Origin: an uncultured Flavobacteriales bacterium
GTDB lineage: Bacteria > Bacteroidota > Bacteroidia > Flavobacteriales_D > Sanyastnellaceae
NCBI GenBank assembly: GCA_938074325.1
Contig: CALJFZ010000017.1
Coordinates: 1-64,000, forward strand
DNA: 64,000 bases
Direction: 5' to 3'
In this document: positions 4,901 through 61,160 of the stretch, in pieces
Position numbering within the stretch: position 1 is the stretch's first letter
Layout of the letters: each line of letters starts with the position of its first letter
Notes under the pieces: generated by a model
What the model saw: only the letters and a program-made list of their open reading frames with translations
Database searches by the model: none
Told to the model about the DNA's origin: nothing
Position numbers and translations under genes: made by a program

Positions 4901-7236
4901 CAGTTATCCGTTGCCTCTGTGTTGTAAGGGATTTCCTCACATTGATTCAGCTGATCCAAAGGCAAATCGACAAAGGCAGGCGCTGTGGTATCCTGTACTT
5001 CGATGACTTGCACATGTGCGGTCGAGTTGCCGCTGCAGTCTTCACTGGTCCAAGTGCGGGTAAGCGTATATGCTTGAGGACATTCTCCAATGGCGACTTC
5101 TTCAGTGTAGGCGACTTCGACGGAAGCATCGCAGATGTCAATCACCGTCAAGATGGCTGCGGCGGGGACTGCATCGCACTCGACGACGAGGTCGGTGGGC
5201 AGTTCCTCAACGAAGAGCGGTGCTTCTGTATCCATTACCACGATGGAGAATTGTTGAGCGGTACTGTTGCCGCATTCATCCGTTGCTGTGATGGTTACGA
5301 GGTGCTCGTAGTTTCCACATGAATCCTCGCTCAAGATTTCCCTTGTTTCGTTGATTTCAACGGCACCGCAATTGTCCTCTGCCTCTACGGCATATGCCTC
5401 CTCTTCGCATTGGTTCAACTGGTCTGCTGGGAACAAGGTGAAGATGGGGGCTTGTGTGTCTTGTACCGAGATGGTCTGAACGTGCTGGGCTACGTTGCCT
5501 GCACAATCGCTGGCCGTCCATGATCGCACAAGCGTATACGATTGTGGGCAATCGCCGAATTCCAATGCTTCCTCGAATGCGACATCGACGGCGCCATCGC
5601 AATTGTCCAATGCCGTAAGTGTATCCGCTGCCGGAATGGCATCGCATTCCACCAACAGATCCGTGGGCAATGCTTCAACAAACACTGGAGCCACAGAATC
5701 CGTGACCGTGATGGTTTGTGTGAAACTGATGCTGTTTCCTGTGCAATCAGAAGCCGACCACGTGCGTGTCAGGACTGTCTCGCTGAGGCAATCCGCTGTT
5801 GAAGCGGCTTCTTCAAACAGCACGTCCATGGGACCGTCGCAGGCATCTGTCGCCTCGAAGATCCATGGAGTGGGAACGTTTTCACACGAAACGGCCAATT
5901 GCTCTTCAGGGAATTCGAGGTTCGTCCACACCGGTGCCTCGGTGTCAAAGACCGAAATCATGAATGTGGTATCCGCAAAATTCCCGCATGAATCTGTAGC
6001 CGTAAGTGTTACGAGATGCTCGTAATTTCCGCAAGAATCTGCGTACAACGTATCGCGTGTTTCGAATACTGCGACATCGTTGCAATTGTCGAATGCCTCG
6101 AACGTGTAGGGTTGTTCCTCACATTGGTTAGCCTGGTCTTCAGGCACCAGCGTGAAAAATGGCAATTCATCATCGATTACGGTGATGACTTGTTGATGGG
6201 TTTGCTCATTGCCGGAGCAGTCTTGCATGAACCAGGTCCGCAAAACGTCATAGCTGCCTGCACATTCACCGTCCACCACGGTTTCGTTGTAAAAGACGGG
6301 TGTGGCCCCTTCGCAGTTGTCAAAACCTTCTGTTATTGCTACCTCGGGCCATTCCTCGGTGCATGAAAGGGTCGTGTCACTTGGGAATTCGCCAAGAAAC
6401 AGGTAGGGCTCGTCAGTATCTTGAACGGTAATCGAAAATTGGATGCTGTTCGCATTCCCGCAGCTATCGGTCGCGGTAACCGTGACGAGATGGCCATAGT
6501 TTCCACAGTCATCGGAATACAACGTGTCGCGTGTCTCCGTGACCGTGATGGCATCGTTTTCCATGCACGCATCGCTGTACTCATAGCTGTAAGGCTGTTC
6601 CTCGCACTCGTTGTTTTGGTCACCGGGAATCAGCGAGAAAGTAGGGGGTGTGAAGTCCAGCTGAACCCCGTCAATAGCGCATCCGCAACACAGGCCGTCT
6701 TCATCTGGATATACGCAGTCATCGGTTGGCAGTTCCAACAGCACATTGTTGCAAGGGACGGGATTGTAATTGCAAGCCGTTTCATCGTAACAACCTTCGG
6801 GAAAGATGCAGGAGCCGTCATCGGAAGTCGCTTCTGGGTAGTAATTGCAGGCACCGGGGTCGGTGCATCCATAAATGATGGAGTCATCGCAATACGTATC
6901 GAATACACCGAGAAGGTCGATCAAGTCGGACACGTTGATGTAGTTGTCGCCGTTGAGGTCACCGGGGCAGCAAAACTCAAGGCAGCTTCCATCATCGACC
7001 GTTGCCTCGGGATTGTACCCAGTTGCCCAAGGATAGGTGCAACCAAAAACCGTGTCCATAACTGCTTGGTAGGCCAAGTCGAAAGAAATGACATCCAGTG
7101 GCTGTATGCTCGGGCGGTGGTTAACAACAGGTGTTGTGTGAACAGGGCCGGTCTCGGTTGCGCGAGACGGGCTTGAAAACAAGGCGATGAGGAAAAAGAA
7201 GCTCATTCCCATCACAGCGGCTGTTCGGGTATTCAT
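1972..7236 (-). CDS. Giant secreted HYR/Ig-like repeat protein
   Basis: A protein of about 1754 residues with a signal peptide (MNTRTAAVMGMSFFFLIALF, cleaved near SRATE). Next comes a cysteine-rich head with GCTDPGACNYYPEATSDDGSC-like repeats and a dockerin-like calcium loop (GDLNGDNYINVSDLIDLLG). The rest is about 19 tandem HYR-type immunoglobulin-like repeats, each starting like DTxAPxF and containing paired Cys around DNCD and DxCGN. Five consecutive repeats (roughly 12.5-15.5 kDa each) are a longer subtype with ECDGxGNxxxLxDWL. No T9SS sorting domain is visible at the C-terminus, which ends inside a repeat just before a strong terminator. Start: the ATG at 7236 rather than the TTG at 7245. 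Likely role is adhesion or extracellular scaffold; this is inference. Confidence 0.8.
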   Translation of the reverse strand: MNTRTAAVMGMSFFFLIALFSSPSRATETGPVHTTPVVNHRPSIQPLDVISFDLAYQAVMDTVFGCTYPWATGYNPEATVDDGSCLEFCCPGDLNGDNYINVSDLIDLLGVFDTYCDDSIIYGCTDPGACNYYPEATSDDGSCIFPEGCYDETACNYNPVPCNNVLLELPTDDCVYPDEDGLCCGCAIDGVQLDFTPPTFSLIPGDQNNECEEQPYSYEYSDACMENDAITVTETRDTLYSDDCGNYGHLVTVTATDSCGNANSIQFSITVQDTDEPYLFLGEFPSDTTLSCTEEWPEVAITEGFDNCEGATPVFYNETVVDGECAGSYDVLRTWFMQDCSGNEQTHQQVITVIDDELPFFTLVPEDQANQCEEQPYTFEAFDNCNDVAVFETRDTLYADSCGNYEHLVTLTATDSCGNFADTTFMISVFDTEAPVWTNLEFPEEQLAVSCENVPTPWIFEATDACDGPMDVLFEEAASTADCLSETVLTRTWSASDCTGNSISFTQTITVTDSVAPVFVEALPTDLLVECDAIPAADTLTALDNCDGAVDVAFEEALEFGDCPQSYTLVRSWTASDCAGNVAQHVQTISVQDTQAPIFTLFPADQLNQCEEEAYAVEAEDNCGAVEINETREILSEDSCGNYEHLVTITATDECGNSTAQQFSIVVMDTEAPLFVEELPTDLVVECDAVPAAAILTVIDICDASVEVAYTEEVAIGECPQAYTLTRTWTSEDCSGNSTAHVQVIEVQDTTAPAFVDLPLDQLNQCEEIPYNTEATDNCGSVTVTETLEILSEDSCGNYEHLVTLIATDACGNATEHSFTIAVSDTEAPSFVEALPEDVQLNCSDGIPAAAVLTAVDNCDDIVVAYSEDTLSSACVTTFTRNWVATDCSGNTVEHMQEVVVTDDVAPTFSALPEEFISLESDDTCSADTTATALGIPEVTDECSGWSLEYVDTDLVAQCVGSYSFTRTWTATDDCGNSSEYQQFVEVLDLQAPALDAEASDLIAECTGDADQAVLNDWLNANGGAQASDNCSDVTWSNDFNVLNATCAGGAVTVTFTATDDCGNSTSTSAVIDFVDTTAPDLLLASADATVECDGLGNMTELEDWLASNGGADAQDPCSTIEWTNDFTALSDECGATGAATVTFTATDECGNSTSTTATFTILDTAAPSMEDAQDLVVECDGLGNLTELNDWLAANGSATALDACSDIDWANDFEAVGEGCGATGATAVTFTATDACGNATSTTATFTIEDTSGPEIVTAPESIVLECDGDGNQDAIADWLAVFGGGEATDICSDASWSHNFEGLTSECGATGSTVVTFTATDECGNATTIDASVTIEDTTAPTITAEAVDLTVECDGNGNNEALNQWLTSQGGAAATDTCSAVSWSNNFSLLEPLCGNTGFATVDFIASDACGNITVTTATFTIVDTTGPQFTSLPIDQNSQCEELPFQAVAVDVCSDVEVIESREVISEDACGNYEHLVTLTASDGCGNEAIHLFTIIVQDTIAPDWNEAIPADVTIGCGELEDAPVITAADNCDDVIEVVFSEETVGEETGCSVEYQVVRTWTATDCSGNVRSATQTISIVDESLPEWDVEIPAVAYVECDAIPDPSLVTASDNCDSEVEITFEEVFEPGPCPNRYVLHRTWTATDECGNSIQATQDLTVLDSTAPEWVGELPPAQVTVTSCDDIPEPPVLEAVDNCDGETLVIFNEFYSPASGCTDVCECGGVVVRTWISSDACGNLATFVQYYSVLNLE

Positions 7237-7272
7237 TGGTGACAATTTGGGTATGGAAATATACTAAAAACA

Positions 7273-7296
7273 TCGACTAGATTACTTGTTAGTCGA
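7273..7296. repeat. Inverted repeat in the divergent promoter region
   Basis: TCGACTA (7273-7279) and TAGTCGA (7290-7296) form a 7-bp perfect inverted repeat separated by 10 bases. It sits about 40 bases upstream of the HYR-protein start, in the 220-base gap between two divergent giant secreted-protein genes. The spacing would suit a dimeric regulator, but no regulator gene is nearby. Confidence 0.4.
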
Positions 7297-7390
7297 CAAA
7301 ATGAAGTGTTTTATACTGATTTTGATGCGTTTGAATGGATCCCACAGCAGGCAATCCTAGGGCAACCGAGGCAACGCTTGGGACTTGTTG

Positions 7391-7424
7391 TTGGTTAATC
7401 TGTTGTGAAATCAACTTAATTTTG
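7391..7424 (+). promoter_or_regulatory. Candidate Bacteroidota promoter for the anchor-L T9SS protein
   Basis: TAATTTTG at 7417-7424 is an exact match to the Bacteroidota -7 consensus TAnnTTTG. A TTGG at 7391-7394 lies 22 bases upstream, near the usual distance of the -33 TTTG box. Transcription would start about 7431, giving a leader of some 25 bases before the ATG at 7457. Confidence 0.5.
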
Positions 7425-7456
7425 ACTTCAATCCATGTGCCCATCCTCCCTTCACC

Positions 7457-10400
7457 ATGACGCTTAAATCTTCACGGATTTTTCAAGGAAAATGGCTTTT
7501 GGCGCTCGTAGGGGTGTTGCCGATGTCGGTCGCAGTTGCGCAATTGACCATTTCTTCGGGCAGTGTCCAGCCCGAAGATCACATCAACGGGGATTTGAAC
7601 ATGGCGGGCTACAGCGTCTCCAACGTTCAGTTTTCAGGAGACGGATTGCAGATGGGCGGATTCACTGGAGGCGGGATGTTGGGCATTGAAAGTGGACTGG
7701 TCTTGAGCACCCATGATGTTCGTTTCCCAGACCCTTCTTTTGATATAACGGACAATTACACGGTTCCGTTCAATGGTCCTTATTCTGTTGGCACTGCCCC
7801 GCCAGCTCTGCAGCAGGCCGTCGTGGACTGGTTGGACATCATTGATCCGGTAACGCCAGGCGCCAATGCCAATGATGACGTCTATGATTTTACCTCGTTG
7901 TCATTCGATATGGTGGCCATGGGGGATTCGCTCCTGTTTGATTTGGTTTTCGCTTCCGATGAATACCAATTCTACCTCGGAGGGTGGCCAACGAATCGAA
8001 ACGACCTCTTCGCCTTATTCATCAGTGGCCCTGGATTGAGTGGTTCTTACGCCAGCCCACCGGGTTTTCCGGACGCCATCAATGCAGCCGTCGTACCGGG
8101 CACAGGGGCACCCATAACCCCGAATACAGTAGACCCCGTGATGAATTTTACGGGACTCTTTCCTGAAGAATTTGCCTCCATTGCAGGCTATTCGGTGCCC
8201 ATGGCTTTGGAAATTCCAGTTGTATGCGGTGCGACGTACCATGTTCAGCTTGTCCTAGCGGATCAAGTGGATCATACGGGCGGGTCGTATGTTTTTTTGC
8301 GATGCGATGGGCAGAGCGATGAGGCCGTCTTGCTTGACTGGGAGGTGCTTGGATTCCAACAAGAAACCGAAGTGTTGTACGAAGGGTGTGGAGTCGGAGA
8401 GATGACGTTTACCCGGCCGGAAGCTTCCGCAGCCTCAGAGGCATTGGATATTTCTGTGAGCTATGCGGGAACAGCGACAGTGGGAGTTGATTGTTCGGTA
8501 TTGCCAACTGCTCTGGAATTCAATCCTGGGGAGACTGAGGTGGTTTGGTCGGGCATCGAAGCCTACGCGGATATGGTGTCCGAGGGAGTCGAATCGTTGG
8601 TCATCAATTTGGACAATCCCGCGGCATGCGAAGGGAGCGGCGGGGTCAATACCTATGCGGTTTCCATCGCTGACGAGCCGCCAGCCATTGAGGTGGACAT
8701 GACGGAGACGCGCGTGTGCCCCGGTGGCAGTGCCGTGGTTGTTCCCTCGATTTCAGGCGGATATGGCAACTACCAATTGCAGTGGTGCGATGGATCAATG
8801 TTGGACTCATTGGTCATTAATAACATCGATGATTACCTCGGTTGTCAACTTACGGTGGGGGATACCTGTGGGTTAGCGCTATCCACTTGGCCGTTGGAGG
8901 TTGAAGTGGTTCAGATGCCCGGACTTTTTGCTGGGGTCGACACCATTGTATGTTCCGAGACATTTGAGCTGCAAGGTGCCATTCTGGACTTACCCGAGCC
9001 CCAATGCAGTTCGGATGCAGGCGCCAACAGTTATTGTTACGGAAACAGTGCCTATGACGTGATTACGTACTGCCCCGACTTTCCGGGAGACGGAACGTTC
9101 ATGAACCTGACCTTCTTACAGGGTTCTGTGGATGTCAATGATGAGTTCTGGATCTATGATGGTGAGAACATCACGGATATGCCGCTCGCTGGGCCCATCA
9201 GTGGGGATTTATCAGGTTTGGTGTTTGAGGCCCAAAACAACTCGGGATGCCTCACAATCTTGGTTGATTCGAACAGTGGAAACAGCTGCCAATCGGGCAC
9301 GCAGACTCCTTGGTTATACTCTGTTGGCTGCAATGCGACCTCCGGCTATGACGTCGCTTGGTCGCCTGCCGAAGCCGTCGCGGATTCGAGTGACCTAAAC
9401 GCACAATTCACAGTGGGCAACGGTGAAAATCTAGCCCTCACTCTGACCTTGCACGAAGCTCCGAATTGCGAGGTGACGGAATCAGTCGCCATTGCGCCGA
9501 GTTTCTCATGGGAGGTCACGCCCAATAATCCAACCTGTTTTGACCCGGACGGCTCCATGCATGTGGCGTTGATTCCCATCGCAGGGGACGGACCTTGGGA
9601 CATCGAACTTTACGAGAGTGGTGACCTCATGGAGAGCGTGTTGACGCCCTTGACTGCATGGTCGTTCGATGGCCTCGGCGCCGGAGATTATGAGGTCGTC
9701 GTATCGAATGAGCACTGCACCTATTCCGAAAATTTGATCCTCGTCGCTCAGCCTGAAGCAACCATCAGCCTCCCAGACGACACACTCATTTGCATCGGAG
9801 GGACGGCGGATCTCGTGGCTTTATCATCGATACCGGAGTTGGATTTAGAGTGGACGTGGAGCAATGCCGTTACCGATTCACTGCAACAGGTGTCACCCGT
9901 TGAAACGACCGTTTACAGCGTTTTTGCCTCGCTCATTCCGGGGTGCAACACGGACTTACAGGAAATCACGGTAACGGTCGCAGACTCATTGTCCTTTGAG
10001 TTCACTCCTTCAAGCACTTTGTGCCTCGGAGACAGCCTCGAGCTTACCGCGACGTTGATCAGTGGCGGGCTCGCTCCGTACGCTTGGAATTGGAGTTCGA
10101 ATGCGTTCACCGTGGATTACAGCCAAGGCACTACCTCCCAGTGGCTTGCCCCAACCTTGACCACCACCTATTGCTTGGAGCTTTCAGATGCATGCGAATC
10201 ACCCGCTGTGGAGGCGTGTTCGGAGGTTTTCGTGCCCGACGACCTGGATCCAATGTTCACATCGAGTGTCATTAGCGGGTGTTTTCCGCTCGCCGTGGAC
10301 TTTGAAGGCGTTGAAGAGGATGTGGATCAAATTGCCAATGCGCTTTGGCAGTTTGGTGACGGATTGACCTCGTCACAGGTCGACTCGGCACTGCATAATT

Positions 10401-14581: not shown

Positions 14582-16111
14582 TTACTGGAACACGCGCACG
14601 CAGTCGACCACCATTTGCTGCGGGAACTGAGTCGAAGCGTCCGGATAGCCCGGCCAATTTCCTCCAACCGCTACATTCATGATGAAAAAGAACGGGGCGT
14701 TGAAGGGGTAGGGTTGGCCGTTCATTTGGGTGTTGTTGATGGAGTAATAGGGTTGGTCGTCCATCAACCAGGTAATCTGGTTTTCTTCCCAAATCACAGA
14801 AAACAAGTGGAAGGCATCGCTGAATTTCTCTCCATTTGGCAGCGTAATACTCGCTCCATCATACTGGTGAACATTCCAATTGCTCCCCCAATGCGCCGTT
14901 CCGTGCACCGTTGAGGGCTGGTGGCCAATCAATTCCATGATGTCGATTTCCCCACAAGCGGGCCAGCCGACGCTAGTGAAATTTTCACCGAGCATCCAGA
15001 GTGCGGGCCAAATGCCTTGGCCCTCGGGAAGCTTTGCGCGGATGTCCATGCGGCCGTGTTGGAAGGATTGGAGACCCTGGGATTTCAGGCGTGCGGACGT
15101 ATACGCCGATCCTTCTTGCCGTGCTGTGATGGTCAAAAACCCGTCAGCCACTGAGCTGTTTGCGGAGCTGTTGGTGTAATTCTGCCACTCGTTATTGCCC
15201 CACCCGTTGTTTCCCAAATCGTATGTCCAATTGTCTAGGTTGATGCTGGTTCCGTCGAACTCATCCGACCACACCAAGGTCATTCCTTCGTAGCCCTCAG
15301 CCGCTGGATAGCCTTCGCCCGAATCGTCGTTGTTTCCTGTGCCATCTTCGACCCGCGTGAAGACGTAAGTGAAGTACAGACCGGCAGCGTTGCAATTGTT
15401 GTCATCGCCTTGCACGTGCAATTCCAAGCTCGTTTCCGAAAGGGACACAATGTCGTATACCAAGCCTCCGTCGTTGGTGCCAACGAAGGGGCATGAGCAA
15501 GCGTCGGCATCGGGCAATAGCGCAAAGGCCGGTTCGCCTGAAGTCCCGCCTTCAGGGAGGAATTCCATGGACACCCCAGTGCAGTCATAAGCCTGTTCAC
15601 TGTAATCACTGAATGCGTCAATGATGGTTCCGTCGTAATCCATGCTGATGGTCCCGTCTGCGTGGAACGTGTACAGATCATCGTATTGCGCGTCTTGTAG
15701 GCCAAATGCAAAGCTGCTGAACCACTCATTGCTGTAGGGAGTAGGGCCGACTTGAATAGCGCCGGCTGCAGTGGAAAACTGCCAAGTGCCAATCAACAAT
15801 TCCGGGATCAGGCCTTCGCCGCCACATACGCCGAAGGCGTCTTCATAGAGGCAGGGTTCAGTGGGATTTGCGTCAAAGTTGCAGGCGTCCAAATCTTCGC
15901 AGAGATCGCTCGTATCCCATATGCCGTCTTGATCGGCGTCTGTTGCCCCAAAGATGCCAAGGATGGCGAGAACATCGGTGATTCCGATAGCGTAGTCCTG
16001 TTCGTAATCAGGATTCCAACCGCACGATTCCTGGGCAATGAGGCCCAATGATGTGGACTGGACAGTGAAAACCATAGCAAGCAAACAAGCAGAAATCGAA
16101 GGAATACGCAT
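14582..16111 (-). CDS. GH16 endo-beta-1,3-glucanase (laminarinase type) with N-terminal accessory domain
   Basis: 509 residues with a signal peptide (MRIPSISACLLAMVFTVQST). A dockerin-like/thrombospondin-3-like acidic calcium region follows at about 25-90 (DYAIGITDVLAILGIFGATDADQDG). Residues about 105-250 form an accessory domain starting LIGTWQFSTAAGAIQVGPTPYS. The GH16 catalytic domain occupies about 270-509, with the active-site segment GWPACGEIDIMELIGH (nucleophile Glu, Asp, acid/base Glu) and a substrate-cleft WPALWMLG. No T9SS domain is present at the end. The accessory domain is matched by the separate lipoprotein at 55470-56336, and the catalytic domain is a close paralogue of the GH16 at 56339-57526. 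Predicted to cut laminarin-like beta-glucan outside the cytoplasm. Confidence 0.9.
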   Translation of the reverse strand: MRIPSISACLLAMVFTVQSTSLGLIAQESCGWNPDYEQDYAIGITDVLAILGIFGATDADQDGIWDTSDLCEDLDACNFDANPTEPCLYEDAFGVCGGEGLIPELLIGTWQFSTAAGAIQVGPTPYSNEWFSSFAFGLQDAQYDDLYTFHADGTISMDYDGTIIDAFSDYSEQAYDCTGVSMEFLPEGGTSGEPAFALLPDADACSCPFVGTNDGGLVYDIVSLSETSLELHVQGDDNNCNAAGLYFTYVFTRVEDGTGNNDDSGEGYPAAEGYEGMTLVWSDEFDGTSINLDNWTYDLGNNGWGNNEWQNYTNSSANSSVADGFLTITARQEGSAYTSARLKSQGLQSFQHGRMDIRAKLPEGQGIWPALWMLGENFTSVGWPACGEIDIMELIGHQPSTVHGTAHWGSNWNVHQYDGASITLPNGEKFSDAFHLFSVIWEENQITWLMDDQPYYSINNTQMNGQPYPFNAPFFFIMNVAVGGNWPGYPDASTQFPQQMVVDCVRVFQ

Positions 16112-16146
16112 ACGAGGAAGGTACGCTATTTTGTGCGGGAAAGCCA

Positions 16147-16154
16147 CAAACTTA
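16147..16154 (-). promoter_or_regulatory. Candidate -7 box for the GH16 gene
   Basis: The minus strand reads TAAGTTTG here, an exact TAnnTTTG match, 36 bases upstream of the GH16 start in the 53-base divergent gap. It would give a leader of about 30 bases. No clear -33 TTTG was seen at the expected distance. Confidence 0.45.
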
Positions 16155-16164
16155 AATTCAACCC

Positions 16165-17199
16165 ATGCAGTACTTCCCGACTTTTTTGTTCGCTTTGGTG
16201 ACCTTTCTTTTTGCCAATGGATGTTCAACTTCTGGAGTAACGGAGCAACTTGCTCCACGTTCGTGGGCGCTGGCCATTCACGGAGGTGCGGGGCATTTTG
16301 GTGAGGAAGACCTCAGTGCGGGACAGCAAGCAGCTTACACGGAATCCCTAACTGCGGCGGTTGAAATTGGAGAGCGCATTCTGATCGAAGGGGGGACAAG
16401 CCTCGATGCCGTTGAGGCGGTCATACGGTTTTTGGAAGACGATTCGTTATTCAATGCGGGCCGAGGTGCAGTCTTCACAGCCGAGGGCGTTCAAGAGTTG
16501 GATGCTTCCATTGCGGACGGTGCCACCCGGAACTGCGGGGCGGTCACGGGAATCAGAGGGTTCAAGCACCCCATTTCGGTGGCGCGTTCGGTGATGGATT
16601 CCAGTGAGCATGTGTTTTTCAGTGGCCACGGAGCGGGTGTTTTTGCCAGTGCTTTGGGCCACGATACGGCGGACGGTGATTGGTTCAGAACCGAGAAGGC
16701 TTACCAACGGTACCTGCGCGCTAAGCGCAGAGCGGAAGAAACGGATGTCCTAGCTGACAAGCGAGGAACCGTCGGTTGCGTTGCGCTTGACCAGGCGGGA
16801 AATCTAGCGGCCGGCACATCGACTGGAGGGATGACGTATAAACAGCACGGACGCATTGGAGACAGTCCCGTTATCGGCGCTGGAACATGGGCTGACAACC
16901 GCAGCTGTGCGGTTTCGGCCACCGGGTGGGGCGAGTACTTTATCCGCACTGGGGTCGCGCAAGACGTACATGCCCGCATGATCTATGGAGACGAGTCCTT
17001 GGGAGAGGCGTGCCGTGGGGCCATTTTCGATGAGATGGGGGCCTTGGGCGGGGATGGCGGAATCGTTGCCCTCGACAGAAACGGCAAGATTGCCTTGGTA
17101 TGCAACAGTGCTGGGATGTTTCGGGCGTGGGCCACGCCAACTGATTCCGGGGTTGCCATGTTCGGCGCCACGCAAGAAGGAACGGTCGAAGTGTATTAA
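16165..17199 (+). CDS. Isoaspartyl peptidase / L-asparaginase (Ntn-hydrolase), lipoprotein
   Basis: 344 residues. The N-terminus carries a lipoprotein signal peptide ending LFANGC (Cys20). The rest matches plant-type asparaginase/isoaspartyl peptidase: AIHGGAGHF near residue 38, LEDDSLFNAGRGAVF near 90-104, and the autoprocessing site at residues 201-204, G-T-V-G, where Thr202 becomes the new N-terminal nucleophile. Then come STGGMTYKQHGRIGDSPVIGAGTWADN and GDGGIVALD. It hydrolyses beta-aspartyl dipeptides or asparagine; the lipobox places it in the periplasm or on the outer membrane. Length is normal for the precursor. Its stop overlaps the convergent membrane-protein gene by four bases. Confidence 0.9.
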   Translation: MQYFPTFLFALVTFLFANGCSTSGVTEQLAPRSWALAIHGGAGHFGEEDLSAGQQAAYTESLTAAVEIGERILIEGGTSLDAVEAVIRFLEDDSLFNAGRGAVFTAEGVQELDASIADGATRNCGAVTGIRGFKHPISVARSVMDSSEHVFFSGHGAGVFASALGHDTADGDWFRTEKAYQRYLRAKRRAEETDVLADKRGTVGCVALDQAGNLAAGTSTGGMTYKQHGRIGDSPVIGAGTWADNRSCAVSATGWGEYFIRTGVAQDVHARMIYGDESLGEACRGAIFDEMGALGGDGGIVALDRNGKIALVCNSAGMFRAWATPTDSGVAMFGATQEGTVEVY

Positions 17200-18056
17200 C
17201 CTGCCGTCAATTCTTCAGGGCCGTCGCTGGTCAATCCGCGGTGCATGACGAGCACCAACAACGCAAGCAGTGCACTCGTCGATTCATAGGCTAAAGCGTG
17301 CCAAGGTTCGATGACCAAAGCCCTGCGCAGGAGAATAGTGCCGACAATGAATCCACAGTTTCGGAAGACCAATCCAAAGTCCGACAAGTAGCGGAACGAA
17401 ATCACCAACAGCAATACATCCACCAAAATCAGCGCGGTGAAGAAGTCGTTGTAGAAGAAGTCGTTTGGGTCATGCAGCGCCCAATTCGAGTCCGTGTACA
17501 ACTCCAGCCCCCAAGTGAACAGGGACCAGCCGCTGAGGAAAATCAGGTATGCAAATAAGAATCCGGCGAGGATCTTTTTGAATTCGATGAACCGCTGCAG
17601 TTCCAATTCCTCAATCCGCGCGATTCGGCGGGGCAAGACCCGGTAAAATGGCACCAAGATCCCGGCTACAATAATCGCTCCCAACAAATGCGGAAAAAAA
17701 TCGGCTTCCCAAGGCCATTTCGTTGTGAAATCAACGTCCTTAAAAACCGATCGAATTTCAATCAAGGCGACGATTTCCATTTGCTTTCCCATGGACCTGG
17801 CAAAAGAAGTCGGTAGGTAGTGGATCAAGAGGTACACCTCGGCGACCAAGATGGCTGAGAACGGCGTGTAAAGGGTTTGAAGGGGGTGGCTGAAATACGC
17901 TTCAGGCCAATTGAACTCAAAGATGAGGTTGGCACTGTAGAGCGCGAGGTGCAACAAGAACATGCCCAATGCAAACCAAACCAGCCCGCGTTCCACCCGG
18001 TCGCGCGTGCTTTCCGAGAGCACCATGTTCGCGCTGTCAATCAAAAATGCTCTCAT
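17196..18056 (-). CDS. Uncharacterised polytopic membrane protein
   Basis: 286 residues with about six hydrophobic segments: WFALGMFLLHLALYSANLI; YTPFSAILVAEVYLLIHYL; the LLGAIIVAGILVPFY region; a segment around FLFAYLIFLSGWSLF; FFTALILVDVLLLVIS; and a C-terminal ALLALLVLVMH. Several membrane-embedded His residues occur, but not in the paired spacing of a b cytochrome. I do not recognise the family. Its start is only 11 bases from that of the divergent redox operon, which suggests shared control; a link in function is inference. Confidence 0.72.
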   Translation of the reverse strand: MRAFLIDSANMVLSESTRDRVERGLVWFALGMFLLHLALYSANLIFEFNWPEAYFSHPLQTLYTPFSAILVAEVYLLIHYLPTSFARSMGKQMEIVALIEIRSVFKDVDFTTKWPWEADFFPHLLGAIIVAGILVPFYRVLPRRIARIEELELQRFIEFKKILAGFLFAYLIFLSGWSLFTWGLELYTDSNWALHDPNDFFYNDFFTALILVDVLLLVISFRYLSDFGLVFRNCGFIVGTILLRRALVIEPWHALAYESTSALLALLVLVMHRGLTSDGPEELTAG

Positions 18057-18067
18057 TTTAAGTCGTT

Positions 18068-19735
18068 ATGAATCAATCTGATAACAGGTTAAGTCGCTCG
18101 ATGTTCGGAGCATTTTGTCCGTACCTATTTTTGTCCTCCATGTGGCGCAAAGGGGAGATTCGAAAAACCAGGCAATTGACGCCGCAGTCCGCGGAGCTTG
18201 CCCTCGTTTTGAAGGGCGGCATGCCGGATGCAGACCCGGGTCAGTTCGTGGTCATCGAAACCGAAATTCAAGGCGTCTCCGTACGTGCGTCATTTTCGCT
18301 GCTTTCCATTGTCCAAGACGAATGGCGTCTCGCTGTGAAGCAGGCAAGGGTGGGGGGCGTGAGCGAATGGCTCTGCGACCTACAGGCGCCAGCTGACGTC
18401 CGCGTCGCAGGGCCCTTTGGCGATTTTGCTCTGTTGCCGGGATTCGATCACCATGCATTCATCGCCGGTGGGAGTGGAATCACCCCCATTTATTGCATGG
18501 TGAATGCGCTCATTCAAGCAGGTGAGGTTCCTACGCTGTATTTCTGCAACTCCGCCCCGGAGGAAGCCATGTACCTATCGGAGGTTCGGGAGTGGGCTCG
18601 GCATGGACGCATCAAGTTGGTTGAGGTTTTTGGACAGGGGTTGGTAAGCCGCATGGAGCGGGATGACTTTCGCAACTCAGCAGTTTACGTGTGTGGCCCA
18701 CAGGCCATGACGGCTGCTGCTTTGGCTCAATTGGAACAATGGGGTGTCAGCGAAGGCGCCATTGCGACGGAAACCTATAAACGCGATCTATCCAACGGAG
18801 AGGCGTCCAATGTGCGATGGAAAGGGCGTTTTAGAAGGGAAAAAGAAGTCGCCGTGGCGGCAGATGAGAGCTTGTTGCAGGCCTTACGGCGCTCGGGAAC
18901 GACCATTGACGCGGCTTGCTTGGTGGGTGCTTGCCGCACATGTGAGGTGGTCGTGGCATCGGGTCGAGTTGTTTGCAATGGTCGGGTCTTTGAAGCGGGT
19001 GAAGTAGTTCCAGCATGCGCAGCACGCCCGTTGCCGGATAACCCAGTGGTTCTGCGCCCATCCAAGGGGCTTTCGCGCGCCCAGTGGTTGATCGCCGCGG
19101 TGTTGATTGGGCTGGTATTCATGGGCATGTGGAATGTGCCGCCGGGATTGGGGTTTTCTTCGATGGGGTCCATGAACACAGGTCACAGCAGCTTAAGCTG
19201 TGAATCATGCCACCGTCCTGCGGAGGGCACGCTGCGACAGCAACTGGGTTACAATGCCAAAACAGCCTTGGGCGTGCACGATCACGATTGGGCAGCGGTG
19301 GGCTACGCCAAGGTGGATAACCAAACTTGTCAATCCTGCCACGAACGTCCCAACGACCGGCATCCTGTCTCTCGATTCAAGGAATTGCGTTTTGCAGCCC
19401 AACGGGAAGCACTGGGTGTTCACCAGTGCGTGAATTGCCATGGAGAACATGCGGGCAAGCGTGTGGCGAAGGTGGAGATGGACTTTTGTCAGCATTGCCA
19501 CGCGTCGATGGAAGTGAAAGACGACCCGTTGGATGTTCCCCATTCGGACCTGGTGTCCAACGAAAATTGGGCCTCGTGTTTGACCTGTCACGACTTTCAT
19601 GGGAACCACATGCATTCCGTCCCGTCACGCATGGCCGACAGGTTGCGCGAGTCTGAAATCCTCGGTTACTTTGACGGCGAAACAGATCCGTATGGACAAG
19701 AAAAGCGTTACCGCGCCACCAATGAGAAACCATAA
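18068..19735 (+). CDS. FNR-like flavin reductase / 2Fe-2S ferredoxin / membrane helix / pentahaem cytochrome c fusion
   Basis: 555 residues in one chain. Residues about 27-125 are an FNR-type FAD domain (RASFSLLS at 73-80). Residues about 128-235 are the NAD(P)-binding lobe (FIAGGSGITPIYCMV; YVCGPQAMT). Residues about 250-325 are a plant-type ferredoxin domain with Cys284, Cys289, Cys292 and Cys317 (C-x4-C-x2-C...C). A single membrane helix lies at about 338-355 (AQWLIAAVLIGLVFMGMW). The C-terminal part has five c-type haem motifs: CESCH 378, CQSCH 421, CVNCH 454, CQHCH 474 and CLTCH 504. The expected topology puts flavin and Fe-S in the cytosol and haems in the periplasm. First gene of a four-gene operon; stop and next ATG are one base apart. 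Start could instead be the ATG at 18140. Confidence 0.88.
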   Translation: MNQSDNRLSRSMFGAFCPYLFLSSMWRKGEIRKTRQLTPQSAELALVLKGGMPDADPGQFVVIETEIQGVSVRASFSLLSIVQDEWRLAVKQARVGGVSEWLCDLQAPADVRVAGPFGDFALLPGFDHHAFIAGGSGITPIYCMVNALIQAGEVPTLYFCNSAPEEAMYLSEVREWARHGRIKLVEVFGQGLVSRMERDDFRNSAVYVCGPQAMTAAALAQLEQWGVSEGAIATETYKRDLSNGEASNVRWKGRFRREKEVAVAADESLLQALRRSGTTIDAACLVGACRTCEVVVASGRVVCNGRVFEAGEVVPACAARPLPDNPVVLRPSKGLSRAQWLIAAVLIGLVFMGMWNVPPGLGFSSMGSMNTGHSSLSCESCHRPAEGTLRQQLGYNAKTALGVHDHDWAAVGYAKVDNQTCQSCHERPNDRHPVSRFKELRFAAQREALGVHQCVNCHGEHAGKRVAKVEMDFCQHCHASMEVKDDPLDVPHSDLVSNENWASCLTCHDFHGNHMHSVPSRMADRLRESEILGYFDGETDPYGQEKRYRATNEKP

Positions 19736-19736
19736 A

Positions 19737-20930
19737 ATGAACAGGCAGATTGCTTATGCCCTTGCCTTCACCTCAGTAGTGAGCAGTTCGGCTCTCTGGT
19801 CGCAATCGGATTCGAATGCGTCTGACGAGATTTTGCTGCAGGTCCGACCAAGGAGCGAATGGCGCGATGGCTACCAGCGGCTTCGCCAACCGGGAGAAGC
19901 AGGTGCCTTGCTTTCGATGCAACGAACGCGCGTGACGTGGCGCCACCATGCCGAGAAATGGGAGGTGAAGCTCGGATTTCAGGATGTGCGTACGTTTGGT
20001 GACCTCACAGGGTACTCAGGGTATGGGGCCATGGCCGCTGCTGAATCGTGGGCTGCATGGAAACCCAACGAGCGAACGCGCATCACAGCAGGGCGTCAGC
20101 AAATTGCATTTGACAACGAACGCATCGTCGGGGCGGTGAATTGGTCCCAGCCCGGGCGGTTCCACGATGGAATTCGTTGGGACCAGCGCACCAATTTGGG
20201 GAACACCACTGCAGCACTGGCATGGGACGCACCCGGCGGCTTGACGCGCATCATGGCGCACCATGTTTACACCACCGAGTTGCATCGAGTATCCCTCGTG
20301 TATTTCAATCAATTGAATTCGCAGCAACCGGACGAATCGGTAGCAACTTCGGGATTCACTTGGACAGGAGAGAAACGCGATTCCCCTTTTTCATGGGTGC
20401 TTGAAGGCTACATGCAGGCACAAAAGGCGGAATTGCCAACATCCTACATGGGGGTGCTGGAGCTGCACGCAAAAAGTGACCAAATCGGCAAGGCCCTCAT
20501 CGCACTGGACTGGCTTGAGGGCGACGCGCGTGGCAGGGCATTTGCACCGTTCTTGGGAACCAACCACCGGCATTATGGCTGGATGGACCAATTCTACGTC
20601 GGTATTCCAGCCAACGGCATGACCGACGCACGCGTGCATTGGTCCAAACCTTTTAAGCGCACCGAGTGGAATGCCCGATGGGACGTGCGGTACCACCGAT
20701 TCTATTCGGCCGAGTTCGATGCGCATTATGCGGATGAAATCGATGCTGTGGTGGTCTTCACGCCCAAGAAGTGGGTGAAGGCATCATTTGGTTGGTCTGT
20801 TATGCGGGGCACGGAGGCCATGTACGAGTCTCAAAACAGGAAGTCCACCGGGAATGGTCTTCAAAATTGGGGATGGGTGGAGTTGAATTTTTCACCGACC
20901 GTAGCATTGAATCAAATCCGTATGCAATGA
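19737..20930 (+). CDS. Alginate-export-family-like outer-membrane beta-barrel
   Basis: 397 residues with a signal peptide (MNRQIAYALAFTSVVSSSALWSQ). It continues with a long series of alternating amphipathic strands rich in Trp and Tyr, in the style of the AlgE/alginate-export barrel family: LLQVRPRSEWRDGYQRL, AAWKPNERTRITAGRQQIAFDN, and the closing strand GWVELNFSPTVALNQIRMQ. Such barrels act as porins. The gene begins one base after the pentahaem fusion's stop and its stop overlaps the next start (ATGA), so it is tightly embedded in the redox operon. The role, solute pore or partner for periplasmic haem proteins, is not evident from sequence. The longer upstream reading from 19599 is rejected because it lies in the previous gene. 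Confidence 0.75.
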   Translation: MNRQIAYALAFTSVVSSSALWSQSDSNASDEILLQVRPRSEWRDGYQRLRQPGEAGALLSMQRTRVTWRHHAEKWEVKLGFQDVRTFGDLTGYSGYGAMAAAESWAAWKPNERTRITAGRQQIAFDNERIVGAVNWSQPGRFHDGIRWDQRTNLGNTTAALAWDAPGGLTRIMAHHVYTTELHRVSLVYFNQLNSQQPDESVATSGFTWTGEKRDSPFSWVLEGYMQAQKAELPTSYMGVLELHAKSDQIGKALIALDWLEGDARGRAFAPFLGTNHRHYGWMDQFYVGIPANGMTDARVHWSKPFKRTEWNARWDVRYHRFYSAEFDAHYADEIDAVVVFTPKKWVKASFGWSVMRGTEAMYESQNRKSTGNGLQNWGWVELNFSPTVALNQIRMQ

Positions 20931-21748
20931 GGCCACTGCGCTTTTGGGTATCGGTGATTTTGGTTTTCTGCATGGCTTTGGGCTACCTCTTTTTCAGCGC
21001 CCCTGAGCCTTTAGCGGCAGTAGACGCCGCCGACAACTCATTCTCAACAGAGGAGGCCATGGCGTTGTTGGCTTACGAAAACGATGTGACGCGAACGCTC
21101 TACACCAAAGCCATCGTAGGAGCTGGGAAGGCACAGGGATGGATGTTTTCAGAAGATTGGGCGGACCCGGATGTCGTCGCAGGTCCATTGCCTGCTCTGT
21201 TTTTACGTGGCATTGCGGAGGAGCTGAATTCTGGCGAAGTGCCCCTCGGATTGTACCTCGGTTCCGACTTTCCAATCGAATCTTCCAATCAATTCCAAGG
21301 GCGTCAGGCGGAAATATTTACCGAGATGCGGGAGCGCTTGGAACCCGCATATTTTTTCGATCAAGTCACACACGAAACCATCGGTATGTTCCCAGATTTC
21401 GCGTCGGCACCGGCGTGTGTTACCTGCCACAATGAACACGAGCGAACGTCAAAAACGGACTGGGAATTAGGTGATTTGATGGGGGCCACCACGTGGTCAT
21501 TCCCCGGGGATTCAGTAACGACCGATGAGGTGGTTTCCATGCTCCAGGCGTACCGACAAGGCGTAGCCAATGTGTGGAGCAGGTATCTGCTGGAAATCGA
21601 GGACATGGATGCTTCAATGCGCCCTGAAATTGGCAGTTCTTGGCCGAGCCAAGGTGCCTACATTCCTTCTGGTCGAGCCTTTCAAGATAGCGTGGCCGAG
21701 TTGGCTTCCCCTCATTTGTTGGCCGCAATTTTGGAGGCACATGAATGA
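20927..21748 (+). CDS. Tll0287-like (DUF3365) monohaem c-type protein, membrane-anchored
   Basis: 273 residues. An N-terminal membrane anchor (FWVSVILVFCMALGYLFFS) is followed by a periplasmic domain resembling the Tll0287-like/DUF3365 haem fold. One c-type haem motif, CVTCH, is at 164-168 in the context FASAPACVTCHNEH, preceded by a helical region ending EPAYFFDQVTHE. Third gene of the redox operon: the start overlaps the barrel gene by ATGA and its stop overlaps the next gene by eight bases. It would relay electrons or sense redox state or ligand in the periplasm. DUF3365 domains also serve as sensor inputs, but there is no kinase or cyclase domain here. Confidence 0.75.
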   Translation: MRPLRFWVSVILVFCMALGYLFFSAPEPLAAVDAADNSFSTEEAMALLAYENDVTRTLYTKAIVGAGKAQGWMFSEDWADPDVVAGPLPALFLRGIAEELNSGEVPLGLYLGSDFPIESSNQFQGRQAEIFTEMRERLEPAYFFDQVTHETIGMFPDFASAPACVTCHNEHERTSKTDWELGDLMGATTWSFPGDSVTTDEVVSMLQAYRQGVANVWSRYLLEIEDMDASMRPEIGSSWPSQGAYIPSGRAFQDSVAELASPHLLAAILEAHE

Positions 21749-22205
21749 TCTAAAGCTCCAACTGCGAGCGGTGTATGCGTGTTTTTGCGCCTTGCTTGTT
21801 TCAACGGTTCTGAGCCAGCTGGGTATGGTGGAATGGCATTGGCAGGATTCGCCTGTGTTTCGCAATTGGACCGGAGCATTGTTGTTCGCTTCTTTGCTGG
21901 GGCAGTGGTGTTTGTCTATTGGCCGCGTTGTTTACCAACGTCAAGGGGCGCGCTGGGATGCTTGGGTAGAGGTGCACCAGGCCTTGGCTTGGGCGGTGCC
22001 TTTTCTTGCCTTGCTTCATTCGCTGGAGCTGGGCTACGGATTGTTAGGGGCTTTGCCATTGGTGTTGTTTGCAGCGGCCATTTTCGGTTTGTGGATTTCG
22101 CTTCGCAAGAATGGCCGCCGTTGGCTTCCTTATCACTTGATTTTTTCTGCGTTGACACTTGCAGGCAGTGTGGTTCACTTGCTGCGCGTTGTTTTTTACC
22201 GCTGA
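21741..22205 (+). CDS. Small membrane protein with di-haem b-cytochrome-like His spacing
   Basis: 154 residues with about five hydrophobic helices. Two helices each contain a His pair spaced 14 residues apart: His79/His93 in the helix starting HQALAWAVPFLALLH and His132/His146 in the helix starting HLIFSALTLAGSVVH. This geometry (H-x13-H in two facing helices) is that of di-haem b cytochromes such as ferric-reductase and cytochrome b561-type proteins. No flavin or NAD domain is attached; the FNR-type reductase is encoded three genes upstream in the same operon. The start overlaps the preceding gene by eight bases. Predicted to move electrons across the inner membrane; haem binding is inferred from spacing only. 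Confidence 0.65.
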   Translation: MNDLKLQLRAVYACFCALLVSTVLSQLGMVEWHWQDSPVFRNWTGALLFASLLGQWCLSIGRVVYQRQGARWDAWVEVHQALAWAVPFLALLHSLELGYGLLGALPLVLFAAAIFGLWISLRKNGRRWLPYHLIFSALTLAGSVVHLLRVVFYR

Positions 22206-35300: not shown

Positions 35301-37686
35301 GGATTTAAACGAATTGTTGCCCGGCGCATACGTTTACGCCTTTACCCATGCCGGGGAGGTGTGCACGTCGACCGCGGATGCGGAGATGGAAGTGCATCCC
35401 AAACCGACCGTACAGGTTACATCCGAGCCGGTTGCGTGCGTTGATTCCCTCATGACCATGTCTGCGACCACAGATGCAGGCACTGAGCCTTTTGCTTTTG
35501 CCTGGAACATTGGTGGTCAAACGTGGGAAACGGAGGTCCCGTCCTACACGACCGCTTGGTCGCAGTCGGGAGTTGAGGACGTTGCATTGGAGACGACGGA
35601 TGCGTGGGGGTGTGCGACCACCATTTCATGGACGACCGAAATCCAATCGCCTGTAAGCGTTGCAATGACGGCTGCCATGGCCATTTGCAATCAAGCGATA
35701 CCGGTGGATCTCATGCAGTCTGTTCAACCTGCGGTGGAGGGAGCTTCTCAATTTTATGGCCTCAATTTGGCTTCCGCTGCTGTGAGCACGGCGGGGCTCG
35801 TAAACCCCGAAATGTTGCCCACTGGTGAACACGAAATTGTGTACCTCTTTCAACCCAATGAAGGATGCGTATTTCAGGATACCCTCACCTTGGAAGTAGG
35901 TGTTGCAGCTGACATCACAGCAGGTTCAGATCTATCTGTTTGCTTTGATTACGGGGTCGTAGAATTGCCTGCAGAAAACGGGACGCTTCCTGTATGGTGG
36001 GCAGCCGAAACGGAACAGACCATTGCCGCAATTGTTGACGCAAATTCCGGTACGGTAGACGTCAGCCTCCTGCCAGTAGGTGTGCATACATTTTCCATCT
36101 CAACAGGCGAAGGAACATGCGCTGCTTCGGATACCCTTGACTTGGAAGTGCTAGAATTGCCTCAAGTGGATTTGCCTGCTCTTGACGCTGCATGTGCAAA
36201 TGGTGCCCCTGTGATGTTACCAGACCCGTGGCCGAACGGAGGAGCCTGGCAAGGTACGGGGGTGACGGACATGGCATTTAATCCTGAGCTTTCGGGTGTT
36301 GGTGAGTTTGTTTTGACCTACGAATTTGTAGATGTCTCAACCGCCTGTGCCAATGACATGACTGTCGGAATCACCGTTCACGACGCTGTGGATTTGTCGT
36401 TGACCCCCAGCGCATTGGAAGGGTGCAGTCCATTTGACGTGAGCGTCATGGTCGAGGATTGGGATGGTTCTGAAATCACATGGTCGGTGGGTGATTCCGT
36501 TTTCACCGAAGCTTCCGCGCTGGCGTCGTTGATCCTGCAAGCACCCGGCATGTATGAAATCACTGCCGAAGCAGTGGATGCCAACGGATGCGAGCGGCAG
36601 GCCTCGCATACCCTTGAGGTAATCCCCGCCCCGGAGGTGGATTGGGCGCTCGAAATCAACGAGTGGTGCGGTGTGCCTGCGGTGATTCCCGTGGGATTGG
36701 ATGCCGGAGCGGCAGAGGTCCAATGGCACGTAAACGGTTCGTTGGTAGCCATCGGTCAAACGGCAGAACTGGAATTTGAAGAAGCGGGCTGGTATGCATT
36801 GGAAGCCGTTGTGACCAACGAATTCGGATGCGTGAAATCCCTCGCAGATTCCCTCGAGGCATTGCCATTGCCTTCTGCGACATTGAATGCAGACCCCATG
36901 TTGGGTTGCAGCCCACTTGAAGTGACATTGGATTTCGAACACGACGCTGAAGAGGCCCATTTGATGTTGAGTTCAGCTGCCGCAGAATGGCTGCTGAGCA
37001 CCTCTGATTCTGTGTTGGTCTTGGACGAAGCGGGAGGGTACCAATTGGCCCTGCATGTCGTTGACGCTCGAGGGTGTGAAAACACCATCGAGCTCGCAGA
37101 CAGCATCCAAGTGCTCCAAAGTCCCATTGTGGACTTTGAGCCATCGCCTTACGCAGGTACGTGGGACAATCCGGATCCGTTGAACAGCTCTTGGTCTTTC
37201 GAGAACCTTTCGGATGATGGGCAAGCGCTCTGGGATTTCGGCGACGGGGGGATGTCGACCAACTGGAACGGCAGCCACACGTACGAAGCTCCCGGAACGT
37301 ATGAGGTGCACGTAATGGTCGTCAACGAGTTCGGCTGCTCTGGAGAAGCCGCGATGGAAGTGGAAGTCGAGGAAAACCTGCAGGTCTTCGTACCCAACGC
37401 ATTTACCCCGCCCACGAATGGCTATTCGGATGGTGTGAACGACGGGTGGCGTCCCGAAATCTCCGCTCCTGAATTGGTGGACCGCTATTGGTTACGTGTT
37501 TTTAACCGCTACGGCCAGCTCGTCTGGGAATCCCACGATCCGGAGGAATACTGGATCGGCCAAGCGGGACAGCAAAGCGACCATTTCGGGATGAACGATG
37601 CTTACACGTGGGTCTTGCGCGTGGATTCCCGGGCGCAACGTCCTGCTCAGCGGGAGTGGCGCGGCCACGTGACCCTCATTCGATGA
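32302..37686 (+). CDS. Giant Ig/PKD repeat protein with T9SS type B sorting domain
   Basis: 1794 residues. A signal peptide (TAACAFVASWTVLAEAYG) is followed by a Cys-rich start (CLEPCECHP), PKD-like modules, and then many Ig-like repeats of about 75 residues. These repeats share C-x-n-LPxAxPxGGxWxGxGV, FxPxxxGxxxxTY and GC. Near 1700 a PKD module (ALWDFGDGGMSTNWNGSHTY) precedes the type B sorting domain (FVPNAFTPPTNGYSDGVNDGW, WLRVFNRYGQLVWES). Exported by T9SS; an adhesin or gliding-related surface filament is the usual guess. Its stop overlaps the convergent cupredoxin gene by 11 bases. The repeats have diverged enough that DNA-level tandem identity is low. Confidence 0.85.
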   Translation: MVRFVSIRMMLTAACAFVASWTVLAEAYGQDCLEPCECHPLSDGLVISVEADGECAPLSVDLVSNLASDLWVDHAFEWEINGGEFEWTNGADEGSPDPTIVLQESGIYQFALIATDTAGVGCSATSNTVTFVVAGAPQVMISDAPDLCAWEEGVVEVLVNPGNTALTSFAWGAGGAWDTLAFPAPLVQVFETAGANEVIAAASNACGADLDTAYVQVFPTPALEVHSEYNWYCMGSYADFTASGDGEFVWNANSEVLSGGQPGDSTVRLAVGSQVVGSVFTTIDHGSVQCTSSAGFTAYGFFVPSVTIGADEVACVGDEVELDANIFSFGWDTSVEWILNGAAVDTVHAPTASQSTTSSFSWEGETTPGVYEFQAAVTFDPYPAWLPDYGCADTTSHVVAVTALPEVSSVPIWEVCNQSFSEPLPEANPIGGEWQGPNGPVQLAVDPLDYGLGQHEFTYAFTDANGCQSTDTTLLVVEEPIQAMAGLDSTFCESNAIVTVPSSQSGGWWSGPGVLFPESGVVDLAQLVVGQNSLMYMLGEGSCATSDEVIWEVMESPMAFLSSEGSLFCDGDTVWLDVLAGGGTLAEGSAYNFNWTEQVVFTSTGVPYYVADVNEPLETIGLIVTDDEGCADEAVTFVNAMPLPEVVIPALGVECDSDFSVELPQPSASMGTWSGQGIAHPDGVFNPAVAGIGITELTFTATSILGCENSDMALIEVIAAPTVDAGNGISVCAGAPAVALEGFSPLDGWWEGPLTASNDSVIFDPGTAVAGNYEAIYHIGEGSCHVSDALEIEVLSLPVLQPVLEAAICEGDTALVHVDVVNADDFSGYSVMWSGANLITELDAWSVASGPWAAGDAPEASVTVTTESGCSASAVASWSVNALPEITLPEGWSVCANVDMALLPDASPSGGAWTGAGVEGESFMPAEALGNSELEYTIEDANGCTNSAILAAEIVLPIEIDLGPKLHECEGTGAAWLPTPEALSGNWAGPGLLDAASGEVDLNELLPGAYVYAFTHAGEVCTSTADAEMEVHPKPTVQVTSEPVACVDSLMTMSATTDAGTEPFAFAWNIGGQTWETEVPSYTTAWSQSGVEDVALETTDAWGCATTISWTTEIQSPVSVAMTAAMAICNQAIPVDLMQSVQPAVEGASQFYGLNLASAAVSTAGLVNPEMLPTGEHEIVYLFQPNEGCVFQDTLTLEVGVAADITAGSDLSVCFDYGVVELPAENGTLPVWWAAETEQTIAAIVDANSGTVDVSLLPVGVHTFSISTGEGTCAASDTLDLEVLELPQVDLPALDAACANGAPVMLPDPWPNGGAWQGTGVTDMAFNPELSGVGEFVLTYEFVDVSTACANDMTVGITVHDAVDLSLTPSALEGCSPFDVSVMVEDWDGSEITWSVGDSVFTEASALASLILQAPGMYEITAEAVDANGCERQASHTLEVIPAPEVDWALEINEWCGVPAVIPVGLDAGAAEVQWHVNGSLVAIGQTAELEFEEAGWYALEAVVTNEFGCVKSLADSLEALPLPSATLNADPMLGCSPLEVTLDFEHDAEEAHLMLSSAAAEWLLSTSDSVLVLDEAGGYQLALHVVDARGCENTIELADSIQVLQSPIVDFEPSPYAGTWDNPDPLNSSWSFENLSDDGQALWDFGDGGMSTNWNGSHTYEAPGTYEVHVMVVNEFGCSGEAAMEVEVEENLQVFVPNAFTPPTNGYSDGVNDGWRPEISAPELVDRYWLRVFNRYGQLVWESHDPEEYWIGQAGQQSDHFGMNDAYTWVLRVDSRAQRPAQREWRGHVTLIR

Positions 37687-46621: not shown

Positions 46622-46705
46622 GAAGTCGCAGGTCAAGATAGCGCAAGGTCCACCGAGGTGAAAAAAAATGAATTCCGCCCCCCTAATGATGTCATTTTAT
46701 TCGTG

Positions 46706-46713
46706 TAACTTGC
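46706..46713 (+). promoter_or_regulatory. Candidate -7 box upstream of the GH3 gene
   Basis: TAACTTGC resembles TAnnTTTG with two mismatches and lies 18 bases before the ATG at 46731. If real, translation must begin at 46731, not at the upstream ATG at 46668. Tentative. Confidence 0.25.
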
Positions 46714-46730
46714 ACACCTCAGCCCGCGCA

Positions 46731-59875: not shown

Positions 59876-59895
59876 CAGAAATCAACAGAAATCAA
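59876..59895. repeat. Tandem 10-bp direct repeat
   Basis: CAGAAATCAA occurs twice in immediate succession (59876-59885, 59886-59895), overlapping the stop codon of the PNGase F-like gene. Probably a slippage product; a regulatory role in icd expression is possible but unsupported. Confidence 0.45.
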
Positions 59896-61103: not shown

Positions 61104-61111
61104 GTGTATTG

Positions 61112-61119
61112 TAGTTTTA
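61112..61119 (+). promoter_or_regulatory. Candidate -7 box for the T9SS esterase
   Basis: TAGTTTTA is one mismatch from TAnnTTTG and lies 41 bases before the ATG at 61161, which would give a leader of about 35 bases. No good -33 box was seen. Tentative. Confidence 0.3.
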
Positions 61120-61160
61120 TCGTTAATCAGGCACTTGCCCATTTTCTTTCAATTCCAAAG

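Follow-up and report, generated by a model that had tools for sequence, protein, structure and literature searches.

Introduction

The locus described here is a cluster of four genes, which we call A to D, in a 64,000-nucleotide stretch of DNA (hereafter the window; positions 1 to 64,000 of contig CALJFZ010000017.1, GenBank assembly GCA_938074325.1) from an uncultured Flavobacteriales bacterium. A encodes a flavoprotein fused to a 2Fe-2S domain and a pentahaem domain, B a porin, C a monohaem protein with a Cache fold and D a small membrane protein with paired His residues. The described systems that come closest to it are the ferric reductase superfamily, MsrPQ, the Tll0287-like haem proteins, an operon of Bradyrhizobium and the porin-cytochrome conduits. 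In the ferric reductase superfamily (NADPH oxidases, MsrQ), a cytosolic NAD(P)H flavoprotein feeds a partner in the membrane that has two His pairs with a spacing of 14 residues, a pattern that D shares. The likeness extends to three of the loci described below, in which the flavoprotein and the membrane part are one protein. However, D scores below the cut-off of the superfamily's Pfam model (PF01794), and the 2Fe-2S domain, the pentahaem part and the haem-Cache protein are additions of the relay. MsrPQ differs in that no MsrP molybdoenzyme is encoded among the four genes, and outside nitrate islands we found no molybdoenzyme conserved with the core of the cluster.

C shares with the Tll0287/sCache_haem family (PF11845; structure 5b82) a Pfam match, the fold and a CxxCH motif. 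Tll0287 has a His/Cys-ligated haem, whereas C, judging by 78 aligned sequences, probably lacks a conserved axial Cys; C is also extended at its C terminus and occurs together with pentahaem and membrane haem proteins. The narK-bjgb-flp-nasC operon of Bradyrhizobium (PMC4724949) serves nitrate handling and, like the Bacteroidota islands described below, includes a globin and an NAD(P)H flavoprotein, but as set out there it is cytosolic only, with no pentahaem, haem-Cache or membrane haem protein; the window cluster, for its part, has no globin next to it. MtrCAB and related conduits resemble the cluster in combining a multihaem protein with a barrel. In contrast to them, the window cluster has a pentahaem protein and lacks decahaem genes, and its porin is small (397 residues) and dispensable. 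All parts of the cluster have known families as their home, and the relay would work in the manner of a ferric reductase or MsrPQ system, yet it departs from these systems in features that define them. A preliminary description of the window had singled out the cluster as its best candidate for an undescribed system, and we likewise found no description of it in the open-licence full-text literature, judged in part by titles and the beginnings of abstracts.

Results

Since conservation of the genes as a unit was one of the points on which the preliminary description had staked its proposal beforehand, we examined their distribution. A profile of the pentahaem domain, searched against one genome per species, yielded 236 relatives, and the best-scoring 80 loci were fetched; all counts out of 80 below refer to these best 80 of 236. 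By record title, they come from seven phyla (Bacteroidota, Pseudomonadota, Nitrospirota, Methylomirabilota, Chloroflexota, Acidobacteriota and Myxococcota). The pentahaem domain, C and D occurred together in all 80 loci and are referred to as the core. With C of the window as the sole query, C was found to adjoin the pentahaem domain in every locus. D lay within 6 kb of C in 80/80 loci when searched by profile (weakest E value 9.1e-17; 45 of the 80 were absent from the profile) and in 56/80 when D of the window was the sole query. The flavoprotein was found in 63 loci with the corresponding part of the window protein and in 64 with a profile. Sequence distances of C, the pentahaem domain and D rise jointly (Spearman 0.52-0.64, reached by none of 500 permutations), which is compatible with joint inheritance but also with plain species history. 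Joint conservation stood for A, C and D.

The flavoprotein is joined to two different partners. It forms a single reading frame with the pentahaem domain in 23 of the 80 loci and with D in three, which by record title belong to Chloroflexota (L069), Acidobacteriota (L090) and Pseudomonadota (L106). By Pfam, the fusions with D contain FAD, NAD and BFD-type 2Fe-2S domains, the 2Fe-2S domain of L106 being below the cut-off. The protein of L090 (7362-9884; 840 residues) is a triple fusion in which cyclic-nucleotide-binding domains are added to the flavoprotein and D. The remaining flavoprotein-bearing loci encode the parts as separate genes. Because the flavoprotein joins both partners in different lineages, the fusions are our best evidence for the path of the electrons. 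We propose that cytosolic NAD(P)H would reduce the flavin domain of A, that electrons would pass from the flavin to the 2Fe-2S cluster of A and cross the inner membrane via two b haems of D, and that they would then flow to the pentahaem domain on the periplasmic side and to the single haem of C as end point. Since each part has a cofactor site, the membrane sides fit and the single helix of A cannot pass electrons, we consider this route from NAD(P)H through FAD, 2Fe-2S, D and the pentahaem domain to C likely, and the flavoprotein-D fusions have made it slightly more so. As first suggested, the conserved unit most likely delivers electrons to the periplasm from NAD(P)H in the cytosol.

The four genes lie on the same strand, with a single base between the stop codon of A and the ATG of B and overlaps of 4 bases between B and C and of 8 between C and D (Table 1), so that the tight spacing given in the preliminary description was confirmed. 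The domains that it had listed are likewise present, although B and D score below their Pfam cut-offs and owe their support to homologues, and A had been started at 18068. The start most likely lies 24 codons downstream, at 18140 (MW...): an alignment has Met at this column in 8/8 orthologues, followed by Trp in 7/8, and in one of them (G017) a stop codon lies a short way upstream of the equivalent Met.

Table 1. Coordinates of the cluster and of the domains of A in the window
Feature	Position	Strand	Basis
Gene A, NAD(P)H flavoprotein fused to a 2Fe-2S domain, a single membrane segment and a pentahaem domain, 531 aa	18140..19735	+	Pfam, 8-orthologue alignment, hydropathy, haem motifs
A, NAD_binding_1 domain, with FAD-binding part before it	18458..18718	+	Pfam, residues 131-217 of P0001
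A, plant-type 2Fe-2S domain (Fer2), CLVGACRTC	18836..19030	+	Pfam, residues 257-321 of P0001; motif
A, sole hydrophobic segment in the membrane, A residues 310-340	19067..19159	+	hydropathy
A, pentahaem domain	19166..19732	+	haem motifs in homologues; model pLDDT 90.5
Gene B, Alginate_exp-type outer-membrane porin, 397 aa	19737..20930	+	Pfam, homology to the porin that accompanies NrtABCD in other lineages
Gene C, Tll0287-like (sCache_haem) monohaem protein of the periplasm with a membrane anchor, 273 aa; haem motif CVTCH, residues 164-168	20927..21748	+	Pfam, fold 5b82
Gene D, membrane protein, four His invariant, two haem b predicted, 154 aa	21741..22205	+	alignment, Pfam of homologues

In A, NAD_binding_1 (39.1 bits) and Fer2 (37.4) score above their cut-offs and FAD_binding_6 below (17.1 against 21.1); the protein has one hydrophobic segment and five CxxCH motifs. 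All 81 pentahaem sequences could be aligned. Five CxxCH motifs and five further His are found in 81/81, and a sixth His in 80/81. As this would suffice for His/His ligation throughout, the pentahaem part is most simply read as a wire. Its profile gave no significant match among PDB sequences, NrfA being the best (E 0.05), and five of the 81 members match the NrfB model; matches to the OmcA/MtrC and DmsE models are sub-threshold. The predicted model of the domain had no Foldseek or VIA fold match, which says little for a multihaem protein. The profiles of C, D and B also gave no significant match among PDB sequences. D was aligned with 36 of 81 rows, and His79, His93, His132 and His146 are invariant in 36/36. 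The protein scores 14.3 bits against Ferric_reduct (PF01794; cut-off 28), a model that matches 17 of the 36 sequences at E<=0.1, with a best value of 6.3e-6. We take the four-His pattern to stand for two stacked b haems as in ferric reductases, and D is accordingly predicted, from sequence, to hold two haem b.

For C, 78 of 81 rows were used (L079 and L081, incomplete, and L120, over-long, were omitted). C of the window has an N-terminal membrane helix and scores 27.5 bits against PF11845 (cut-off 24.1); a match to this model and a CxxCH motif are present in 78/78 homologues. The structure nearest to its predicted model (pLDDT 94.9) is Tll0287 (PDB 5b82; Z 10.5, 3.6 A over 141 residues), and the next row has Z 6.5. 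Thirty-three columns are invariant in the 78 sequences, across the whole haem domain. Apart from CxxCH, no conserved Cys was found in these sequences except in one column of the signal region (column 22, 36/78), which by eye looks like a lipoprotein site. An invariant Arg (Arg56) may face the haem, but this is a guess; it is also present in a haem-Cache protein outside the core (L040). Pfam detected no signalling domain in the C homologues.

The preliminary description saw no nitrate or nitrite module beside the window cluster. This does not extend to other lineages, where the core sits in nitrate/nitrite islands, and the reading of the cluster changes with it. A frequent order in Bacteroidota is Crp/Fnr regulator, globin, C, D, flavoprotein, pentahaem, NrtABCD and porin. 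Among the 80 loci, a globin is a neighbour in 36, NrtA in 25 and, by clustering, a Crp/Fnr gene in 23. In the family of G845 (Tamlana; 249 genomes), the pentahaem domain occurs in 22 genomes and NrtA in 49: NrtA is present in 22/22 carriers and in 27/227 non-carriers (Fisher test, 2.8e-18). In G982 and G839, the core and NrtA are separated, by about 446 kb or by their location on different contigs, which shows that the tie between them is more than linkage.

We compared 40 nitrate islands, on stretches that end at about 20 kb (L134-L173): 20 with the core (from 20 of the 22 carriers) and 20 without (from the first 20 listed of the 27 non-carriers that have NrtA). A globin was present in 20/20 islands with the core and in 1/20 without. 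In L142, a globin (8622-9041) stands alone between the regulator and NrtA, with the core genes absent. Cytosolic NasA, NirB or siroheme Nir genes were found in 4/20 islands with the core against 11/20 without (p 0.048), and periplasmic Nap/Nrf-type genes in 11/20 against 2/20 (p 0.006). Nine of these 11 Nap/Nrf-type islands rest on one NrfD/DsrP-type membrane gene; NapA itself is present in two and NrfA in two.

The second nitrogen-oxide neighbourhood was found in the class of G820 (Candidatus Methylomirabilis). The core occurs in 7 and a NorB-type oxidase in 13 of its 95 genomes, and an oxidase of the NorB/NOD type is present in 7/7 carriers against 6/88 non-carriers (Fisher test, 1.6e-7). 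The oxidase gene adjoins the core in six of the seven (G820, G874, G878 and G883; G821 and G886 have a COX1-domain fragment at the start of the contig), and in G875 the two are on different contigs. An H-NOX (haem-NO-binding) gene lies close to the core in an Anaerolineae genome (L069, 11614-12198, minus strand).

In the host's own family, 100 genomes were searched, the host's included. A matched over most of its length in eight (G000, G005, G015, G017, G018, G029, G048 and G059); matches at E<=0.001 occurred in 94/100, nearly all through the flavin domain alone. The four-gene order ABCD is kept in five relatives (G017, G015, G029, G048 and G018), but B is divergent in G005 and was not found on the 12-kb contig of G059. 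The cluster has decayed in G012 (L038, G012:C1:14000-30000, at about 6600-8200): C is gone, A and D are short remnants, of A about 60 residues of its end, and B is intact. As the sole intact gene there, B must have a use of its own. Across the phylum, the pentahaem profile matched 30/395 genomes at E<=0.001; besides the host genome all of these were weak or partial (best 7.1e-10), and none was counted as a carrier. With C as the sole query across the class, 3/395 genomes matched, namely the host and two weak ones.

B scores 18.4 bits against Alginate_exp (cut-off 25.2) and is homologous to a protein of L085 that passes with 51.7 bits. It is dispensable, being absent from some loci, and a homologue was found in 24/80 core loci. 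An Alginate_exp-type porin accompanies NrtABCD in all 40 nitrate islands, including 20/20 that lack the haem genes; it may serve as a porin for nitrate or nitrite. Because its homologue goes with the nitrate ABC transporter whether or not haem genes are present, B is not an electron conduit; we suggest that it would be a porin for small anions, outside the wire. A transfer of electrons on to the outer membrane, which the preliminary description had considered, is not supported, given these observations, the decayed cluster of G012 and the lack of an outer-membrane cytochrome gene in the cluster.

Elsewhere in the window, a GH16 gene (14582-16258, minus strand), a GH3 gene (46668-49058, plus) and a TonB-dependent receptor with a plug domain (50877-53936, plus) may belong to beta-glucan use. 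A multicopper-oxidase-domain protein (37676-39100, minus) has a sub-threshold match to the NirK model, and a Peptide-N-glycosidase F-like protein is encoded at 59892-61142 (minus). The gene at 17196-18056 (minus) encodes a divergent membrane protein with no Pfam match, about 87-88% identical in two relatives.

Discussion

The haem-Cache fold of C and the two nitrogen-oxide neighbourhoods of the core suggest what the relay could be for. C would bind and reduce a small ligand, most likely nitric oxide (NO) or a close nitrogen oxide, and the unit would thereby protect the periplasm from nitrogen-oxide stress. C has no conserved Cys outside CxxCH, and a member of its family that lacks the Cys releases NO slowly (PMC12889525). 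The globin genes of 36/80 loci and the H-NOX gene of L069 are further links to nitrogen oxides. The globin and the flavoprotein of the Bradyrhizobium nitrate operon shield that organism from NO (PMC4724949). The whole statement, that is the path together with removal of NO or a near relative by C, is offered tentatively.

Several observations weigh against it. The flavoprotein was absent from the fetched stretch in 16/80 loci, and the statistics of all our association tests ignore common descent. In the host's family, NirK exceeded the cut-off in 3/100 genomes, NosZ in 9/100 and a NorB-type oxidase (qNOR) in 0/100, none of them in the eight carriers; NrtA was found in 0/62 genomes, six of the eight carriers included, with a query that works in the family of G845. 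NorB-type oxidases occur in only 6/34 named carriers, and by eye several loci, of Gammaproteobacteria, Nitrospirota and others, have no evident nitrogen-oxide gene beside the core. NO would not need porin B. Finally, according to PMC12889525, a stand-alone family member binds NO weakly with the axial Cys or without it (C59A), whereas tight binding is seen only in a signalling member without the Cys, so that absence of the Cys by itself does not predict NO chemistry; the stand-alone members are proposed there to be redox proteins.

This last proposal bears on the alternative that survives best, a plain electron supply in which C is a mere carrier and the relay feeds another periplasmic enzyme or a periplasmic cytochrome pool. 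The neighbours of the core differ widely across phyla, and cytochrome-c assembly genes lie close by in some loci, as would suit such a role. Beyond Bacteroidota, however, we found no single terminal enzyme conserved beside the core, and the invariance of C exceeds what would be expected of a carrier. We regard a plain supply as possible, though on the unlikely side.

The porin and the nitrate islands could also speak for a periplasmic nitrite (or nitrate) reductase, in which C or one of the pentahaem haems would reduce an anion admitted by B: the homologue of B accompanies nitrate transporters, the core sits in nitrate islands, and a porin suits an anion better than it does NO. Against this, other nitrite reductases adjoin the core (of the 80 loci, 9 have siroheme Nir, 4 have NirB and 4 have NrfA), the His residues of the pentahaem domain suffice to ligate all its haems and its profile has no significant match to NrfA, and the host's family has yielded no NrtA in 62 genomes; we consider this reading improbable. 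A related candidate, the core as a replacement for a nitrite reductase, was dropped, since siroheme Nir, NirB or NrfA also adjoin the core elsewhere.

C as a sensor of redox state or NO, whose haem the relay would reset or read, draws on the signalling members of its family, which are NO sensors (PMC12889525), and on the Crp/Fnr genes near the core. It is nonetheless very improbable, as C has no signalling domain, no kinase is conserved beside the core, and a sensor would seem to have little need of five further c haems and an NAD(P)H path of its own. A route through the outer membrane, for extracellular electron transfer or ferric reduction, is the least credible of all, for although D resembles ferric reductases, the pentahaem domain has its sub-threshold matches and a barrel is encoded in the cluster, that barrel goes with nitrate transport even in islands that lack the haem genes, is far smaller than barrels of the MtrB type and is accompanied by no outer-membrane cytochrome in the cluster.

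In the nitrogen-oxide reading that we prefer, the cluster could represent a widespread, undescribed class of NAD(P)H-dependent periplasmic reductases of NO or nitrogen oxides, whose catalytic subunit would have arisen from a Cache fold of the sensor type that holds a covalent haem. A membrane wire like that of ferric reductases and a pentahaem protein of its own would feed this subunit. This broader claim is unlikely as it stands. The nitrogen-oxide reading, if right, would assign a role to haem-Cache proteins that stand alone, open a further way for NAD(P)H of the cytosol to serve the periplasm and offer a testable defence against nitrogen oxides in marine Bacteroidota, Methylomirabilota and others.

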